Source of the DNA: an uncultured Rhodobiaceae bacterium
GTDB lineage: Bacteria; Pseudomonadota; Alphaproteobacteria; Parvibaculales; Parvibaculaceae
Assembly (NCBI GenBank): GCA_913057645.1
Contig: CAJXOU010000030.1
Span: forward strand, 1-38,682
DNA: 38,682 nt
Reading direction: 5' to 3'
The translations under genes were made by a program, and so were the position numbers. Of this stretch, positions 30,131 through 36,309 are shown piece after piece; position 1 is the first letter of the stretch, and the number at the start of each line of letters is the position of its first letter. The notes beneath the pieces were generated by a model. That model did not search any database and was not told the origin of the DNA. It worked only from the letters and a program-made list of their open reading frames with translations.

Positions 30131-30787
30131 TTGGGATTGGCAAGCTATAGAAGATCGGTCAGCGAGACCAAACGAGCCGCTATTCTGAAGGCAGCGCGCG
30201 AGAACTTCCTGAAGGGTGGATACAGTCGCGCGGCGATGGCGGAAATCGCCCGTGATGCGGACGTATCGACGGCAACGCTTTACAAGCATTTCTCGTCCAA
30301 GGATGCCCTTTTCACGGCGATCGTTCAGGACGCCTACACGGGCACGGAAGGTTCGCTTTACACCGACATAACCGGCCTGTCTGCGCGAGACGTTCTGAGA
30401 AATATCGGCCGCACCTACATGCGCCAGCAGTTCGACGGGCAGATGAACGCCCTTCTGCGCATCGTCATCGCCGAGGTTCCCTCCGCGCCGCAGCTTGCGC
30501 GCGATGCGTATCAGAACGGCGTCCTGGCGCGTTACGATCAGATCCGGCAGGTCATTGAAGAGCTCGTCGCCCGCGGCGACCTGAAGCCGCACAACCTCCA
30601 TGACGGCGCAAGACATCTTGGCGGCATGGTGAAGGAATTCGTCGTCTGGCCGGCTCTCTTCACGCCCGACTTTCAGAAGCCGGACGACATCGATGCCAAG
30701 ATCGACGCCTGCATCGACGCCTATCTGAAAATATACGGCGCCGAATCCGCGGTCGCTCGCCCTCGGGAAAAAGAAATTGGGACTTGA
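30131..30787 (+). CDS. TetR/AcrR family regulator, first of a tandem pair
   Basis: A 218-residue repressor-type protein. The HTH is AILKAARENFLKGGYSRAAMAEIARDADVSTATLYKHFSSKDALFTAIV (about 18-65); the C-terminal domain (DVLRNIGRTYMRQQF, ALLRIVIAEVPSAPQLA, VKEFVVWPALF) resembles the AefR-like C-terminal class. I choose the TTG at 30131 because AGGAGG lies 10 bases upstream and because the next gene begins with the same sequence (xGLxSxRRxVS). Upstream in-frame codons encode unconserved sequence. It is 182 bp after the sortase gene and overlaps the second TetR gene by 11 bp. Ligand and target are unknown. Confidence 0.88.
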   Translation: MGLASYRRSVSETKRAAILKAARENFLKGGYSRAAMAEIARDADVSTATLYKHFSSKDALFTAIVQDAYTGTEGSLYTDITGLSARDVLRNIGRTYMRQQFDGQMNALLRIVIAEVPSAPQLARDAYQNGVLARYDQIRQVIEELVARGDLKPHNLHDGARHLGGMVKEFVVWPALFTPDFQKPDDIDAKIDACIDAYLKIYGAESAVARPREKEIGT

Positions 30788-31403
30788 ATCGCATCGCCGG
30801 AAAGTCAGTTCGCAGAAGCAGGCCTCCATACTGGTGGCGGCGCGGGACAACTTCCTGAAAAACGGCTACAGCCGCGCCGGCATGGCCGAAATCGCGCGGG
30901 ACGCGGACGTGTCGACCGCGACGCTCTACAAGCATTTCGCTTCGAAGGAAGCGCTGTTCTCGGCGGTCGTGCGGAATGTCGCGCGCTCGACCGGCGACTA
31001 TTCCGGCGTCATCGACCCGGGCGATACGGCACGCGAGGTACTCTACAAGCTCTGCCGCGCCTATCTTTCCGTCCAGTTCGACAGCAACGCCAACGCACTC
31101 CTGCGGATCGTCATCGCCGAGGTGCCCGGTGCGCCCGGTCTCGCCGGCGACATGTATGAGGTGCTCGGCAACCGCAGGAACGACAGCCTGATGCACGTGC
31201 TCGACGAGTTGATCTCGCGCGGCATGCTGAAGCCGCATGACAGCGCTTTCGGCGCCCGGCTGGGTGCAGGCATGCTCAAGGAAATCTTCGTCTGGCCGGC
31301 GCTTTTCGATGCCGAACTCGGCTTGCCGCCCGACACGGATGAAAAGATCCACCGCGTCATCGACGCCTATCTCGCCCTTTACGGTCCCGACGCCCGCGAC
31401 TAG
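30777..31403 (+). CDS. TetR/AcrR family regulator, second of a tandem pair
   Basis: A 208-residue paralogue of the preceding regulator. HTH: QASILVAARDNFLKNGYSRAGMAEIARDADVSTATLYKHFASKEALFSAVV. The C-terminal domain keeps LYKLCRAYLSVQFDSNANALLRIVIAEVPGAPGLAGDMYE and LKEIFVWPALFD. The start is TTG at 30777; the conserved N-terminus GLESHRRKVSSQK aligns with GLASYRRSVSETK of the first copy, and the frames overlap by 11 bp, so translation is probably coupled. The two may form heterodimers. The methyltransferase gene on the other strand overlaps its 3' end by 4 bp. Confidence 0.9.
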   Translation: MGLESHRRKVSSQKQASILVAARDNFLKNGYSRAGMAEIARDADVSTATLYKHFASKEALFSAVVRNVARSTGDYSGVIDPGDTAREVLYKLCRAYLSVQFDSNANALLRIVIAEVPGAPGLAGDMYEVLGNRRNDSLMHVLDELISRGMLKPHDSAFGARLGAGMLKEIFVWPALFDAELGLPPDTDEKIHRVIDAYLALYGPDARD

Positions 31404-33075: not shown

Positions 33076-33083
33076 CGGACGGG
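33076..33083. repeat. Left copy of 8-bp target site duplication
   Basis: CGGACGGG directly outside the left terminal inverted repeat; the same 8 bases stand outside the right end at 36302-36309. This is the footprint of insertion and shows that the element moved here as a unit. Confidence 0.85.
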
Positions 33084-33100
33084 GGTAGTGTCTCAGTTTG
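33084..33100 (+). repeat. Left terminal inverted repeat of the IS1-like element
   Basis: GGTAGTGTCTCAGTTTG, identical to the reverse complement of 36285-36301. The stop codon of the 46-residue gene (33093-33095) lies in this repeat. Confidence 0.92.
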
Positions 33101-33233
33101 AGGGAGGCCACTGATTGGGGTCTTTATCGTCCACGAGCTTCTGTAGCAGGAACTCAATCCGCTTTAGCTGGTTCGACACATAGGCCAGTCCGGCGATGAG
33201 TGTCACGAAGCCGATTGTTATTGCCGTTTCCAT
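33093..33233 (-). CDS. 46-residue single-span membrane protein encoded at the transposon end
   Basis: Start ATG at 33233 with GAGG eight bases upstream, sequence METAITIGFVTLIAGLAYV followed by SNQLKRIEFLLQKLVDDKD and ending in NQWPPSN. The first 19 residues form a membrane helix; the rest is an amphipathic, charged helix suited to self-association. The TGA stop lies in the left terminal repeat. It follows the 241-residue gene by 20 bp on the same strand, so both may be co-expressed. No family recognised; the size and shape resemble small membrane toxins or holin-like proteins, but this is speculation. Confidence 0.65.
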   Translation of the reverse strand: METAITIGFVTLIAGLAYVSNQLKRIEFLLQKLVDDKDPNQWPPSN

Positions 33234-33253
33234 TCATGGCCTCAGTCTGGGGT

Positions 33254-33979
33254 CTAGAAGACCGCTTTGGGCGGTGGCTTTATGTTGTCCCACCTCTCCG
33301 CAATAGCAAAGCACGCGGCCTCCATGTTCTTGAAACGCGTCACGCTATCGGTTGGTGCTGGGTAGGCAACCCCCGCATAGGCGTCAATCGTGAGGCACAG
33401 CTTCCGCTCCGGCTCCGCGTCGGTATCGGCCTCAACAAGGTTGAGGTATCCCAAAAGGAACGCGGATTGCCACTCGGCAACTTCGGGCTTGAGAGATGTT
33501 CCTTTTGCATAGCGCAGAGTCGCCGCGCCGATTTTCACCTTGTTCGTCTTTGTCAGCCTCCGAAACCGAAGTTGCAGATCGGGGGTAACTTTCACGTCCC
33601 CCAAGGTGATCGGCTGGCCCTTCCCCGGCGGAAGCAATTCCGCCTCGGGAAGCGACACCAAATGAGACACCTTCGCAAAGCGATCAATGTAATCGGCGTT
33701 GTGATCGTATAGATCGCGGTCAAAAGTCGAGTCTGCCAGCCGCGTCCGGAGCTTTTCGGCTGCCTCGGACAGGCTGCCAATTTCCGGATTCTCGGTCCGC
33801 AGGAATTTTGATACTATCTGCTTCGCCTCATTGTGTTGTACGACACGGGCGAGCGTTTGGTATTTGCATCCGACGAGAATTGAACGCTTCCTGATGTCGG
33901 TAGCGGCCATGTAGTCCGCGAGGTGGCGGGCGGAAATTTGCGGATTTTTAACCAGCCGGTGCGTTTGCTTGTCGGACAT
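33254..33979 (-). CDS. Hypothetical passenger protein, 241 residues
   Basis: Not recognised. It begins MSDKQTHRLVKNPQISARHLADYMAATDIRKRSILVGCKYQTLARVVQHNEAKQIVSKFL, a helical region with basic residues that could bind nucleic acid, and ends in a more beta-rich region (KLCLTIDAYAGVAYPAPTDSVTRFKNMEAACFAIAERWDNIKPP). No signal peptide or membrane segment. The start ATG at 33979 has GGGGGA from the palindrome CCCCCGGGGG upstream. It is divergent from the 75-residue gene (starts 26 bp apart). Codon use is less GC-biased than the host genes, as for the whole element. Confidence 0.78.
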   Translation of the reverse strand: MSDKQTHRLVKNPQISARHLADYMAATDIRKRSILVGCKYQTLARVVQHNEAKQIVSKFLRTENPEIGSLSEAAEKLRTRLADSTFDRDLYDHNADYIDRFAKVSHLVSLPEAELLPPGKGQPITLGDVKVTPDLQLRFRRLTKTNKVKIGAATLRYAKGTSLKPEVAEWQSAFLLGYLNLVEADTDAEPERKLCLTIDAYAGVAYPAPTDSVTRFKNMEAACFAIAERWDNIKPPPKAVF

Positions 33980-34004
33980 GGAATGGTCCCCCGGGGGTGA
34001 TGAG

Positions 34005-34232
34005 ATGGATGAGTTTTACTTCAGCGTAAATCTCGACAATGACAGAACGCTCTGTTTGGCACCTCTCACAGACCGGCGAATCGCTATGTCCGGTCAGGAA
34101 CTTGCAGATACTAGCGGATATTTCCTATACGAGCAGTGTAGCTCGGAAGGATTTGGCGGAGTGGAAATCATCGCCCGTGTTGTGTCCGATGAGGCCGTCG
34201 CCAAACTGCGCCAGTTTTTCAATATGGACTGA
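34005..34232 (+). CDS. Hypothetical passenger protein, 75 residues
   Basis: Begins MDEFYFSVNLDNDRTLCLAPLTDRRIAMSGQEL and ends RVVSDEAVAKLRQFFNMD. Looks like a compact alpha/beta protein; no family recognised. The ATG at 34005 is chosen with the GGGGGT of the CCCCCGGGGG palindrome eight bases upstream; a TTG at 33969 is possible but would overlap the start of the divergent gene. It is convergent with the transposase, the stops being 3 bp apart. Its existence as a gene is likely but not certain. Confidence 0.55.
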   Translation: MDEFYFSVNLDNDRTLCLAPLTDRRIAMSGQELADTSGYFLYEQCSSEGFGGVEIIARVVSDEAVAKLRQFFNMD

Positions 34233-34235
34233 GTT

Positions 34236-35060
34236 TTAGTCCGCCAACTGAGCAATATCCTCTAACGTCCAGACATGATCCGCAACACCTGCCTGCATGG
34301 CCGGGGTAACGCGAAGCGTCTTATGGATTTTCGCGAAGTTGTAGAACATGAAATGCAGCGCCACGGCATGGGCGTGGTTTTCGATCTTCTTTGAAAAGCC
34401 GTTGGTCAGGCGAGTGAACCGGCGCATATGCATCCGCATGGTGAGGTTCTGGCGCTCAACGTAGGACGTGGAGACATGCTCCCGGTCAGGGTTGCCCGTC
34501 ACCCGGTCCTTGCGCGCGCCCTTGCAGATGGCCGGACTATAGCGGCGCTGCCCTTCCGGGGCGCTACCGTAAATCTTGATGAGCGTGGCGAAGTCCACAT
34601 CGTCGCCAAAGGCATCCTCTACAGCGCCAAGGTAGGGGCCGTGGCCGTCGCTCGTAAGCTGCACACGGTTGGCAAGGCGGGAAGCCACATCCTGCATGAA
34701 CTCGTGCGCATATTCCGCGTCACGTCCGCCGATGAGATAGGAGACGATGAGCTTGCTATCGGCGTCGATTGCGGTCCACGTCCACGTATCGCCCGCGCCT
34801 TCCGGCGCGGCCTTGGCCGTCTTGACGTTCTTCGCCTTCGCGTAGGTGAAGGACCAGATTTCATCGACCTGCACCCGCTGAGACTTCACATTGCGCACAT
34901 GCTCATCGTGATAGGCGGCGCAGGCCGTGCCGACATCGATCAACAACTTTGTCACCGTGTTGATCGACACGTCCGCAAGGCGCGACGTGGCCCGGAGGCT
35001 CATGCCTTCGCAGAGCATTCCAAGGATCTGAGCGCGCTTCTGTGTGGACAGTTTGTTCAT
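34236..35060 (-). CDS. IS1-family-like DDE transposase
   Basis: A 274-residue single-frame transposase. N-terminal HTH (LSTQKRAQILGMLCEGMSLRATSRLADVSINTVTKLLIDVG, about 3-50), then the catalytic core: first Asp in VQVDEIWSFTYAKAKN, second Asp in LTSDGHGPYLGAVEDAFG, and the Glu in SYVERQNLTMRMHMRRFTRLTNGFSKKIENHAHAVALHFMFYNFAKIHKTL, which has the family look of IS1 C-terminal sequence. Unlike classical IS1 it needs no frameshift. The ATG at 35060 is chosen; the promoter -10 element ends 7 bp upstream, so the message would start at or next to the ATG. Confidence 0.88.
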   Translation of the reverse strand: MNKLSTQKRAQILGMLCEGMSLRATSRLADVSINTVTKLLIDVGTACAAYHDEHVRNVKSQRVQVDEIWSFTYAKAKNVKTAKAAPEGAGDTWTWTAIDADSKLIVSYLIGGRDAEYAHEFMQDVASRLANRVQLTSDGHGPYLGAVEDAFGDDVDFATLIKIYGSAPEGQRRYSPAICKGARKDRVTGNPDREHVSTSYVERQNLTMRMHMRRFTRLTNGFSKKIENHAHAVALHFMFYNFAKIHKTLRVTPAMQAGVADHVWTLEDIAQLAD

Positions 35061-35067
35061 GTCAATC

Positions 35068-35096
35068 AAGATAGGGAGTCAAGCATGATCGGTCAA
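35068..35096 (-). promoter_or_regulatory. Transposase promoter, probably leaderless
   Basis: On the minus strand TTGACC (35096-35091), exact 17-bp spacer, TATCTT (35073-35068). Only 7 bp separate the -10 from the ATG at 35060, so transcription should begin at the start codon. Two copies of ATGCTTGAC lie in and around the -35, a possible self-regulatory site. Confidence 0.6.
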
Positions 35097-35202
35097 GCAT
35101 AAAGGTCAGTTAAGTAGACACAGCTCCGCCAACCCATTGGCGGGACTCGCAAAATGGCAAATTGACTTTTGAATCAATCGGTTATATAAGAAAAAGGCTC
35201 GG

Positions 35203-35276
35203 GCCCCATGACAGGATTCGGACCTGCATCTCCACGACTAGCAATCGAGCGCTCTATCCAGTTGAGCTACATGGGG
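35203..35276 (-). tRNA. Unusual tRNA with GCT anticodon, short variable loop and Arg-like body
   Basis: Reading the minus strand, the cloverleaf is complete: acceptor CCCCATG/CATGGGG (7 perfect pairs), T8 A9, D arm GCTC-AACTGGATA-GAGC with A14, G18 G19 and A21, G26, anticodon arm CTCGA-TTGCTAG-TCGTG with one T-T mismatch, variable loop GAGAT, T arm GCAGG-TCCGAAT-CCTGT. The anticodon GCT would read serine AGC/AGU. A bacterial serine tRNA needs a long variable arm, which is absent. A20, C35 and T36 are arginine identity positions, and the D arm matches arginine tRNAs. Base 55 is C, normally T. The discriminator is C and CCA is not encoded. A T5 run follows the 3' end, as for a terminator. It is a passenger of the IS1-like element. 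Confidence 0.78.
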
Positions 35277-35367
35277 AAACCGAGTGGGAATGACCCGGCC
35301 AAAGCCGGGCTTAGACCCTCCTAACGGATGGCGGCCAGCACATCGCTTGCTCCTTTCGTTTCTACGG

Positions 35368-35898
35368 TTACAAAAGCCCCGGGTCGTCTGGTTGGTCGCC
35401 AGACCCGGGGTTTTCTTTGTTACGTTGATCCTCAGGGACAAAGAACCAATGAACGCCCTTACGCCGAACAAATCCCTCTTTGGATAGGCGGTAGAGCGTC
35501 ATTCCAGCGGTCTTGTCGTGAAATTTTGTCTGATACTCTGCCTCGATCTTCGCTTGGATCTTCGAAGCCTTTAGCGGATGCGGGTAGGCCTCTGAGAGCA
35601 ATTCGAGGGCGCGTACTCTAAACGGCTTGTGAACAGTCATGCTGGCCGACAGGCCGACGCTCTCAAGCGTTGCGGTTGCGGGAGACAGGTTCCCGGTTGG
35701 TACCGCTTTTTGAAGCCATGAGACAGGCAATTCCATGGCGCGGGCTGCTGTTGAGATTTCCGCCAATGCATCGTCAAATTGCCGCAGTTGCAGCTTCGCA
35801 GCTTCATCCGCCTTACGACGGGCCGCAAGAAGTTCATCGCGCCGCCGCGTAAGGTCCGCAGCAGCCTCTGCCTTCCATTTTGGAATATCGTCCGACAT
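35368..35898 (-). CDS. Hypothetical passenger protein, 176 residues, coiled coil plus winged-helix-like region
   Basis: N-terminal 60 residues form a charged helix typical of a coiled coil (KWKAEAAADLTRRRDELLAARRKADEAAKLQLRQFDDALAEISTAARAMEL). The C-terminal half (FRVRALELLSEAYPHPLKASKIQAKIEAEYQTKFHDKTAGMTLYRLSKEGFVRRKGVHWFFVPED) has the helix-helix-helix-wing pattern of a winged HTH, so it may bind DNA. No named family recognised. The ATG at 35898 is the natural start. It lies upstream of the tRNA on the same strand, with a strong hairpin between them. Confidence 0.75.
   Translation of the reverse strand: MSDDIPKWKAEAAADLTRRRDELLAARRKADEAAKLQLRQFDDALAEISTAARAMELPVSWLQKAVPTGNLSPATATLESVGLSASMTVHKPFRVRALELLSEAYPHPLKASKIQAKIEAEYQTKFHDKTAGMTLYRLSKEGFVRRKGVHWFFVPEDQRNKENPGSGDQPDDPGLL
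35372..35419. terminator. Bidirectional hairpin terminator at the 3' end of the 176-residue gene
   Basis: CCCCGGGTC plus TGG (35377-35390, with a GTC bulge) pairs with CCAGACCCGGGG (35399-35410), followed by TTTTCTTTG on the plus strand and, on the minus strand, CTTTTG. The left part overlaps the last codons of the 176-residue gene. Confidence 0.75.
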
Positions 35899-35976
35899 TT
35901 GTTCTCGAAAACCCCAACGTTGATTTCGAGAAGGTATCAGCGGGGGAATCGAAGGTCAATCACGGATGGGGTGTTG

Positions 35977-36225
35977 TTAACCGTTTTTCCGCCACCGGGC
36001 GGCGGCGGCCTTGCGCGCGATCTCGGACTTACGCTCATCAGACAATTTCTCGGCTCTCGCTTTGCCGCCTTTTTGGCCACCCTTACGGCCCAAGGCGACC
36101 GCTGCCGGGTCTTTCCCCTCATCGGGGTCCGGGTCCGTCGCCTCGCCCGTCGCAATGTCTGCGATCAGCTTGGCGAGCTGGTTTGTGTCCCTAGGGCGCT
36201 TCGGTTTTTTGGCGGAGTCTGTCAT
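35977..36225 (-). CDS. Small basic passenger protein, 82 residues
   Basis: Lysine- and arginine-rich, with an acidic middle (ATDPDPDEGKD) and the C-terminal repeat-like GRKGGQKGGKARAEKLSDERKSEIARKAAAARWRKNG. That tail is widespread in small plasmid- and phage-associated proteins and is often annotated as nucleic-acid binding; I cannot assign a function. The ATG at 36225 stands 6 bp after a promoter -10 (36232-36237), so the message may be leaderless. It is the first gene from the right end of the element and probably leads a unit with the 176-residue gene, 78 bp downstream. Confidence 0.75.
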   Translation of the reverse strand: MTDSAKKPKRPRDTNQLAKLIADIATGEATDPDPDEGKDPAAVALGRKGGQKGGKARAEKLSDERKSEIARKAAAARWRKNG

Positions 36226-36231
36226 GCGTCT

Positions 36232-36260
36232 AATATCGCATGGGAGGGCGGAAGGCCCAA
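36232..36260 (-). promoter_or_regulatory. Candidate leaderless promoter of the 82-residue gene
   Basis: On the minus strand TTGGGC (36260-36255), 17-bp spacer, GATATT (36237-36232); the ATG at 36225 follows after 6 bp. It lies just inside the right terminal repeat. Confidence 0.45.
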
Positions 36261-36284
36261 GGGGCGCTCAAAAATTCTCAACGG

Positions 36285-36301
36285 CAAACTGAGACACTAC
36301 C
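36285..36301 (-). repeat. Right terminal inverted repeat of the IS1-like element
   Basis: CAAACTGAGACACTACC, the exact reverse complement of 33084-33100. Confidence 0.92.
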
Positions 36302-36309
36302 CGGACGGG
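36302..36309. repeat. Right copy of 8-bp target site duplication
   Basis: CGGACGGG, identical to 33076-33083. Removing the element and one copy joins the 87-residue gene to the uvrB promoter with about 80 bp between coding regions. Confidence 0.85.

Follow-up and report, generated by a model that had tools for sequence, protein, structure and literature searches.

A class I tRNA with a serine anticodon and an arginine-type body inside an IS1-like transposon

How does a tRNA that would read serine codons come to have the short, class I body of an arginine tRNA, what carries such a gene, and of what use might it be to its carrier? These questions are raised by a gene found in 38,682 nucleotides of DNA from an uncultured Rhodobiaceae bacterium (contig CAJXOU010000030.1; this whole stretch is called the window below). 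A preliminary description, made from the letters of the sequence, had proposed a mobile tRNA with a GCT anticodon on an arginine-like body.

The tRNA gene and the transposon around it

The gene lies within a complete transposon, the parts of which are given here by their positions in the window. Loci in other genomes are designated by our own numbers, L101 being the closest relative.

33076..33083, unstranded: left copy of the target duplication, CGGACGGG (exact pair in the sequence)
33084..36301, unstranded: complete IS1-like transposon, 3218 bp, with tRNA cargo (exact 8-bp target duplication and matching ends)
33084..33100, plus strand: left terminal repeat, GGTAGTGTCTCAGTTTG (repeat search, giving 18 nt there, one base of them flanking)
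33254..33979, minus strand: 241-aa ORF, further cargo (no Pfam, NCBIfam, PADLOC or PHROG family)
33969..34232, plus strand: 87-aa ORF, further cargo (no NCBIfam, PADLOC or PHROG family)
34236..35069, minus strand: IS1-like DDE transposase, 277 aa from a TTG (ATG at 35060; PF03400, 35.1 bits, cut-off 24.1)
35203..35276, minus strand: class I tRNA, anticodon GCT, arginine-type body (ARAGORN, Rfam and segmentation)
35293..35310, minus strand: GC-rich hairpin directly upstream of the tRNA (from folding; weak evidence, a 7-bp helix)
35311..35343, minus strand: candidate short ORF, MCWPPSVRRV, after an AGGAG motif, read from the sequence and near-identical in L101 and L205
35368..35898, minus strand: 176-aa protein with an N-terminal coiled coil and a putative C-terminal winged helix (sequence and partial structure model)
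35977..36225, minus strand: 82-aa basic "KGG" protein, also encoded by most sister elements, whether or not these have a tRNA
36285..36301, minus strand: right terminal repeat, inverted (repeat search)
36302..36309, unstranded: right copy of the target duplication, CGGACGGG (exact pair in the sequence)

The terminal repeats are 17 bp long and perfect and, together with the 8-bp target duplication, they bear out the proposal that the tRNA gene is mobile. Along the minus strand, the genes for the 82-aa KGG protein and the 176-aa protein come first, followed by the hairpin, the tRNA and the IS1-like transposase, with the 87- and 241-aa ORFs past the transposase. The three nearest named loci belong to Parvibaculum and have 95-97% transposase identity; the host is probably of this genus. 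The host genome contains a second transposase of the family, 73% identical (L321, G000:C1:104400-105221), at a locus where ARAGORN finds no tRNA. To the left of the element, at 30176-30970, the window holds a repeat of 149 nt with 78% identity and a spacing of 646 nt, which suggests a diverged tandem gene duplication.

The tRNA itself is real and confirmed to be as first described. ARAGORN, the check that had been recommended, returns a single tRNA in the window (35201-35276, minus strand, anticodon gct), and Rfam model RF00005 matches 35203-35276 on the same strand with 53.8 bits (gathering score 29; E 5.5e-9). Segmentation gives an acceptor stem with 7/7 pairs, C1-G72 included, the D loop AACTGGATA containing A15 and A20, the anticodon loop TTGCTAG with U33, the five-nucleotide variable loop GAGAT with U48, the T loop TCCGAAT with C55, and the discriminator C73. 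Thus, the A15-T48 Levitt pair, the GCT anticodon with a 5-base variable loop, the bases A20, C35 and T36 and the C discriminator are all present as claimed. Two features had been overlooked: the anticodon stem contains a mismatch, U28-U42, and the gene does not encode CCA. The mismatch makes the cloverleaf imperfect. C55 is present as described, but it also occurs in phage arginine tRNAs and cannot be considered a unique oddity. With its U28-U42 mismatch, C73 and missing CCA, the window copy is probably weakened or decaying.

A 101-base query around the tRNA matches only itself in its own genome, where there are 42 tRNA matches, the window tRNA counted, and a search of plasmid and phage collections with the window tRNA gave no match. 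The host has a normal 93-nt tRNA-Ser(gct) of its own, which is class II, whereas the window tRNA is class I; the host's tRNA-Arg genes have TCT, CCT, CCG and ACG anticodons.

The arginine character of the body is firm. When the window tRNA was searched in the genomes of 192 relatives, all 28 further best-matching loci, counted after setting aside the window and one sister element, were tRNA-Arg (28/28), and A20 is found in 4/4 host arginine tRNAs and in 0/15 other host tRNAs (alignment A3). This upholds the reading of the gene as an arginine-like class I body with a serine anticodon. According to PMC9976931, the arginine identity set comprises A20, C35, U/C36 and A/G73, and the serine set consists of the variable arm and not the anticodon. 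The window tRNA has A20, C35 and U36, but C73 in place of A or G, and its GCT anticodon reads AGC/AGU instead of an arginine codon; nor does it have the long variable arm of a bacterial tRNA-Ser(GCU), its loop being 5 nt long. A or G73 is present in the related element tRNAs L211, L288, L400, L406 and L407.

tRNAs upstream of related transposases

A same-strand tRNA lies 88-162 nt upstream of the start in 15 of 184 non-redundant transposases, each with at least 200 nt of upstream sequence. Stricter de-duplication gives 14/180, and the strictest count, which drops the window copy and the loci retrieved through tRNA patterns (including L207 and L211, the contig of L207 having also been found by its transposase, as L255), gives 11/177 unique transposases. 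The 250-nt bin just before these 184 starts contains 15 plus-strand and 0 minus-strand tRNAs, the 15 including the window, a contig that entered the count twice and two loci retrieved through a tRNA pattern. All the other bins shown, from -3000 to +5250, contain 4 plus-strand and 4 minus-strand tRNAs in total, and one of them holds the L102 type, with its tRNA some 1.1 kb upstream and on the other strand. The window tRNA is carried by an IS1-like transposon as cargo and belongs to a recurrent set found just upstream of such transposases. The set also includes tRNAs beside two IS1595-type transposases, and many of its anticodons do not fit the body that bears them.

Overall, the arrangement is rare. 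Window-type transposases occur in 12/398 sampled genomes, and a pattern running from T arm to transposase, applied to one sample of 385 genomes and another of 398, matched only the window. Near the transposases of 196 loci, a covariance search detected either clear tRNAs or nothing, with no graded series of decayed forms between them. Scanning upstream regions with ARAGORN at -ps70 proved useless (46 matches upstream, 50 downstream and 36 in shuffles at 102 loci). Exact 8-bp duplications flank 8/16 tRNA-bearing loci (the window, L101, L205, L136, L207, L102, L154 and L400), and the same test found none at the other eight.

The tRNAs carried are diverse. Class I GCT tRNAs occur in six elements with two transposase families: IS1-like in the window, L211, L288 and L400, and IS1595-type in L406 and L407, the Pfam analysis of their neighbours having used the longer loci L410 and L409, respectively. 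A class I arginine-type GCT pattern, narrow enough to miss divergent forms, had three matches in 385 alphaproteobacterial genomes (the window, L406 and L407), all adjoining a transposase; its reversed control had 0 among the matches listed. The preliminary description held that the gene would be less novel if class I GCT tRNAs formed a recognised family. In a sense such a family exists, since five other elements carry one, but this recurrence makes the finding broader, not ordinary. Other elements have the anticodons ACT (L196), CCC (L101, L205), CGT (L084, L136) and AGT (L277). Three elements carry TTA tRNAs, which would read UAA, on a leucine body (L207 and L306-L309) or a serine body (L102), and a glycine body with a glycine anticodon is found in L119 and L154. 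L119, the anticodon arm of which is broken, is present on four contig ends of one Tsuneonella genome, so at least two copies have spread there. The tRNA of L093, next to a diverged transposase, has an 8-nt loop around TTAC. L407 also has a leucine-like tRNA with ACC, and L406 an odd TGC tRNA. The same tRNA slot has been filled independently by arginine, leucine, serine and glycine bodies.

Within the GCT/ACT/CCC group, assignment to an arginine body rests on A20, which occurs together with C35 in 9/9 tRNAs, U36 being present in the GCT and ACT members. Whole-tRNA similarity with the anticodon loop masked recovered the isotype of 74/120 control tRNAs and is thus a weak guide to the body. Applied to 14 element tRNAs (L400, L406, L407 and L093 were left out), it places the window, L101, L205 and L084 nearest to Arg, L207 and L306 nearest to Leu, L102 nearest to Ser, L119 and L154 nearest to Gly and L277 nearest to Glu, but L211 and L136 nearest to Met, L288 nearest to Asn and L196 nearest to Gly. 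The element tRNAs with threonine anticodons (L084, L136 and L277) could be charged with threonine and may be cognate tRNAs.

Several of these loci have particular architectures. In L409 (G324:C9, 676-2866), the IS1595-type transposase is followed by the leucine-like tRNA with the glycine anticodon ACC, a 130-aa protein (coiled coil and possible winged helix), a hairpin and the class I GCT tRNA. In L410 (G392:C16, 414-1732), it is followed by the TGC tRNA, which has a Ser/Leu-like D arm, and the class I GCT tRNA. L205/L227 is a deletion derivative that keeps its terminal repeats, its 8-bp duplication and about 26 transposase codons; its KGG protein runs into the C-terminus of the 176-aa family, and its CCC tRNA is well paired and has CCA. 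L306-L309 are four viral contigs with the same element, in which the leucine-body UAA-reading tRNA stands beside a DUF5343-like protein. Outside these elements, the phage tRNA genes L220 and L232 have leucine anticodons and short (class I) variable loops, and plasmids of Sinorhizobium, Methylobacterium and Bradyrhizobium (L413-L416) bear one type of tRNA-Met(cat) that is absent from the gene tables shown. Plasmid records matching the L407 and L406 tRNAs number 48 and 109, and proved to be Met, Arg or Ile tRNAs in the 6/6 records inspected.

The 176-aa family adjoins the tRNAs of the window, L101, L119, L154 and L205, and a relative is present without a tRNA in L204. The window protein matches no Pfam family and was not found in plasmids; its structure model has a mean pLDDT of 61 and is confident only for residues 7-54, the N-terminal helix. 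Sequence homology with the tRNA-side protein of L409 or L288 was considered and is not supported. At 6/14 tRNA-bearing loci with a KGG gene there is no same-strand ORF of at least 100 aa between KGG and transposase. Elsewhere, the slot carries toxin-antitoxin cargo: of the cargo ORFs in the slot that were scanned (64 of 100, L288 and L306 included), 13/64 match PADLOC RmrA and 13/64 match Pfam Peptidase_M78, RmrA being the antitoxin of RosmerTA anti-phage systems (PMC10440598). Sister IS1-like transposons hence bear RosmerTA-type defence genes, although RmrA and RmrT are absent from the window element, the five proteins of which match 0 PADLOC families.

The anticodon arm and possible roles of the tRNA

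Between the window and L101, the anticodon arm differs at 11/17 bases, as against 29/233 in flanking non-coding DNA (P 6.7e-7) and 35/134 at fourfold transposase sites (P 9e-4). By contrast, the D arm is identical, the acceptor stem has one compensated change and the T arm a single difference, U65 to C65, that keeps the pairing. The arm is only slightly faster than the 176-aa gene (P 0.03), which is 60% identical between both elements, with 36% for the spacer before it; as these have diverged too, exchange of a segment is a possible alternative to selection on the arm. In nine related tRNAs, both partners of 5/5 anticodon-stem pairs show changes, with pairing in 91% of cells, and the other stems are fully paired. 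Across 16 element tRNAs, mismatches number 0/112 in the acceptor stem, 0/80 in the T stem, 15/80 in the anticodon stem and 6/64 in the D stem (the last partly an artefact of fixed segment lengths), whereas 41 host tRNAs have 3/287, 5/205 and 2/205 in the acceptor, T and anticodon stems. The difference between acceptor plus T (0/192) and anticodon stems (15/80) has a Fisher P of 4e-9, and of 4e-5 without L154 and L093, which contribute 7 of the 15 mismatches and both have non-standard loops. U33 is replaced by C33 in L400 and L277. Nevertheless, the stem is perfect in 8/16 element tRNAs, seven of them with an altered anticodon (L211, L288, L400, L205, L207, L306 and L102) and one with an odd anticodon (L277). 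In summary, the anticodon arm changes fast and mostly keeps its pairing; about half of the copies have a relaxed or weakened arm, and its mismatches there make decoding look dispensable.

The best explanation, which we prefer tentatively and at somewhat less than even chances, is that the tRNA is mobile cargo that could be charged by ArgRS, place arginine at AGC/AGU codons and so act as a conditional effector of mistranslation. The gene would be transcribed together with the small operon upstream, RNase P would trim the transcript and a host enzyme would add the CCA. Charging with arginine would be expected from A20, C35 and U36, the main determinants of arginine identity, and from a class I body that does not have the long arm SerRS needs. 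The charged tRNA would compete with the host tRNA-Ser(GCU), so that some arginine might enter at AGC/AGU codons. The same rule might apply to the UAA readers on serine and leucine bodies, the synthetases of which would be independent of the anticodon. The likely use would be that of a costly, conditionally expressed module, transferable between hosts, occupying the slot where sister elements hold toxin-antitoxin genes and possibly controlled by the 176-aa protein where this is present. As misreading would harm the element itself, such an effector would fit being mostly silent, or the copy may be a non-working one. The element does not seem to recode its own transposase, since homologues have mostly Ser, Thr, Ala or other residues, and not Arg, at its five AGC/AGT codons, where Arg is outside the four commonest homologue residues. 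Antisense pairing between the anticodon arm and the element that carries it was also discarded, there being no match beyond shuffles in 20 tRNAs. Replacement of a host tRNA cleaved by a defence nuclease, one of the first suggestions, is unlikely because the body and the anticodon do not belong to any single host tRNA.

A broader version, in which a whole class of small transposons (IS1-like and IS1595-type) carries mistranslating and stop-reading tRNAs as transferable effectors with a diversifying anticodon arm in the toxin-antitoxin slot, is possible but doubtful. Taken jointly with it, the idea that such effectors would be RNA toxins or stress effectors, sometimes with a winged-helix control protein, deserves the same reserve.

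A role without decoding is plausible, since about half of the copies, among them that of the window, have broken anticodon stems. The tRNA fold might serve as a cut site for RNase P and RNase Z, that is, as an insulator, with the cut setting the transcript of the operon upstream apart from the transposase gene; we consider both parts of this proposal, taken together, rather unlikely. Such a role would preserve the acceptor and T arms while the anticodon arm drifted, as the mismatch counts given above suggest, and the place of the tRNA between cargo genes and transposase is fixed. A hairpin of at least 8 bp is found just upstream of 11/20 element tRNAs and 8/41 host tRNAs (P 0.008), but its energy is little different from that of host tRNA upstream regions (P 0.056), and it is weakly distinctive at best. 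Moreover, a drifting arm should not change faster than flanking and fourfold sites, half of the tRNAs keep a perfect anticodon stem despite a changed or odd anticodon, and most elements have no tRNA in the slot.

The tRNAs might also be neutral passengers, picked up by chance from phages or hosts and now decaying. The sharing of A15, A20 and C55 with phage arginine tRNAs is consistent with this, as are the several copies with broken anticodon stems and no CCA. However, bodies of four types have filled the slot independently, the anticodon stem covaries, and chance capture would rarely yield tRNAs that are perfectly paired and yet have an altered anticodon, which makes the proposal unlikely. 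Still less probable is an uncharged, arginine-like decoy with an antitoxin-like function, absorbing a tRNA-cutting toxin or a tRNA-binding factor. The variable arm on a conserved body and the toxin-antitoxin genes that sister elements hold in this slot would suit it, but Pfam, NCBIfam and PADLOC recognise no nuclease or tRNA-binding toxin in the window element, and leucine, serine and glycine bodies occur too. Finally, an unusual class I serine tRNA, charged with serine by some route and decoding normally, is very improbable: although the short leucine tRNAs of phage arrays (L220, L232) indicate that class rules can relax in mobile DNA, serine identity lies in the variable arm (PMC9976931), A20 and C35 are arginine determinants, and no synthetase family was found in the window element (Pfam for 4/5 ORFs, NCBIfam for 5/5).

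If mistranslating tRNAs are spread by transposons, misreading of serine or stop codons would be a horizontally mobile trait, and the related transposons with mismatched or stop-reading tRNAs in the same place hint that this ability can move between bacteria. Annotation based on anticodons would have hidden such tRNAs because ARAGORN labels them Ser, Gly, Thr or "Stop". Well-paired (L211, L400) and weakened (window) copies would constitute a test system for the worth of mistranslation to a selfish element. Even under the other explanations, a DDE transposase with a tRNA at a fixed position upstream is unexpected as transposon anatomy.

Comparison with known systems

Searches of the open-licence literature yielded nothing to the point, among the matches listed, on tRNAs carried by insertion sequences or transposons. 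As an IS1 family member (PF03400, NF033558), the window element has a DDE_Tnp_IS1 domain above the Pfam cut-off, terminal inverted repeats and an 8-bp target duplication, but its transposase is a single 277-aa ORF that scores 69.4 bits against the NCBIfam equivalog, under the cut-off of 100, and the element bears passenger genes and a tRNA. The likeness to RosmerTA (PMC10440598) lies in the RmrA gene found in the same slot of 13/64 scanned elements; the window element differs in matching neither RmrA nor RmrT. Phage tRNA-Arg genes (L228-L232) share A15, A20 and C55, bases that the search pattern required, but they have arginine anticodons and are located in phage tRNA arrays or phage contigs.

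The closest system in print is that of the dual-identity tRNA-ProX (ProA, ProN and ProT) of Streptomyces and Kitasatospora, for which mistranslation and toxicity in E. coli have been reported (PMC11415595, PMC10365949). Bacterial programmed mistranslation by dual-identity tRNAs is described there from a few actinomycetes. The window tRNA resembles them in that its body and its anticodon belong to different amino acids, C73 being the exception among the arginine determinants. By contrast, it has U33 where ProX tRNAs have A33 (PMC11415595), and no synthetase gene, full or truncated, was recognised beside it. In addition, the bodies in window-type elements are of arginine, leucine or serine type, and these tRNAs sit inside short DDE transposons.
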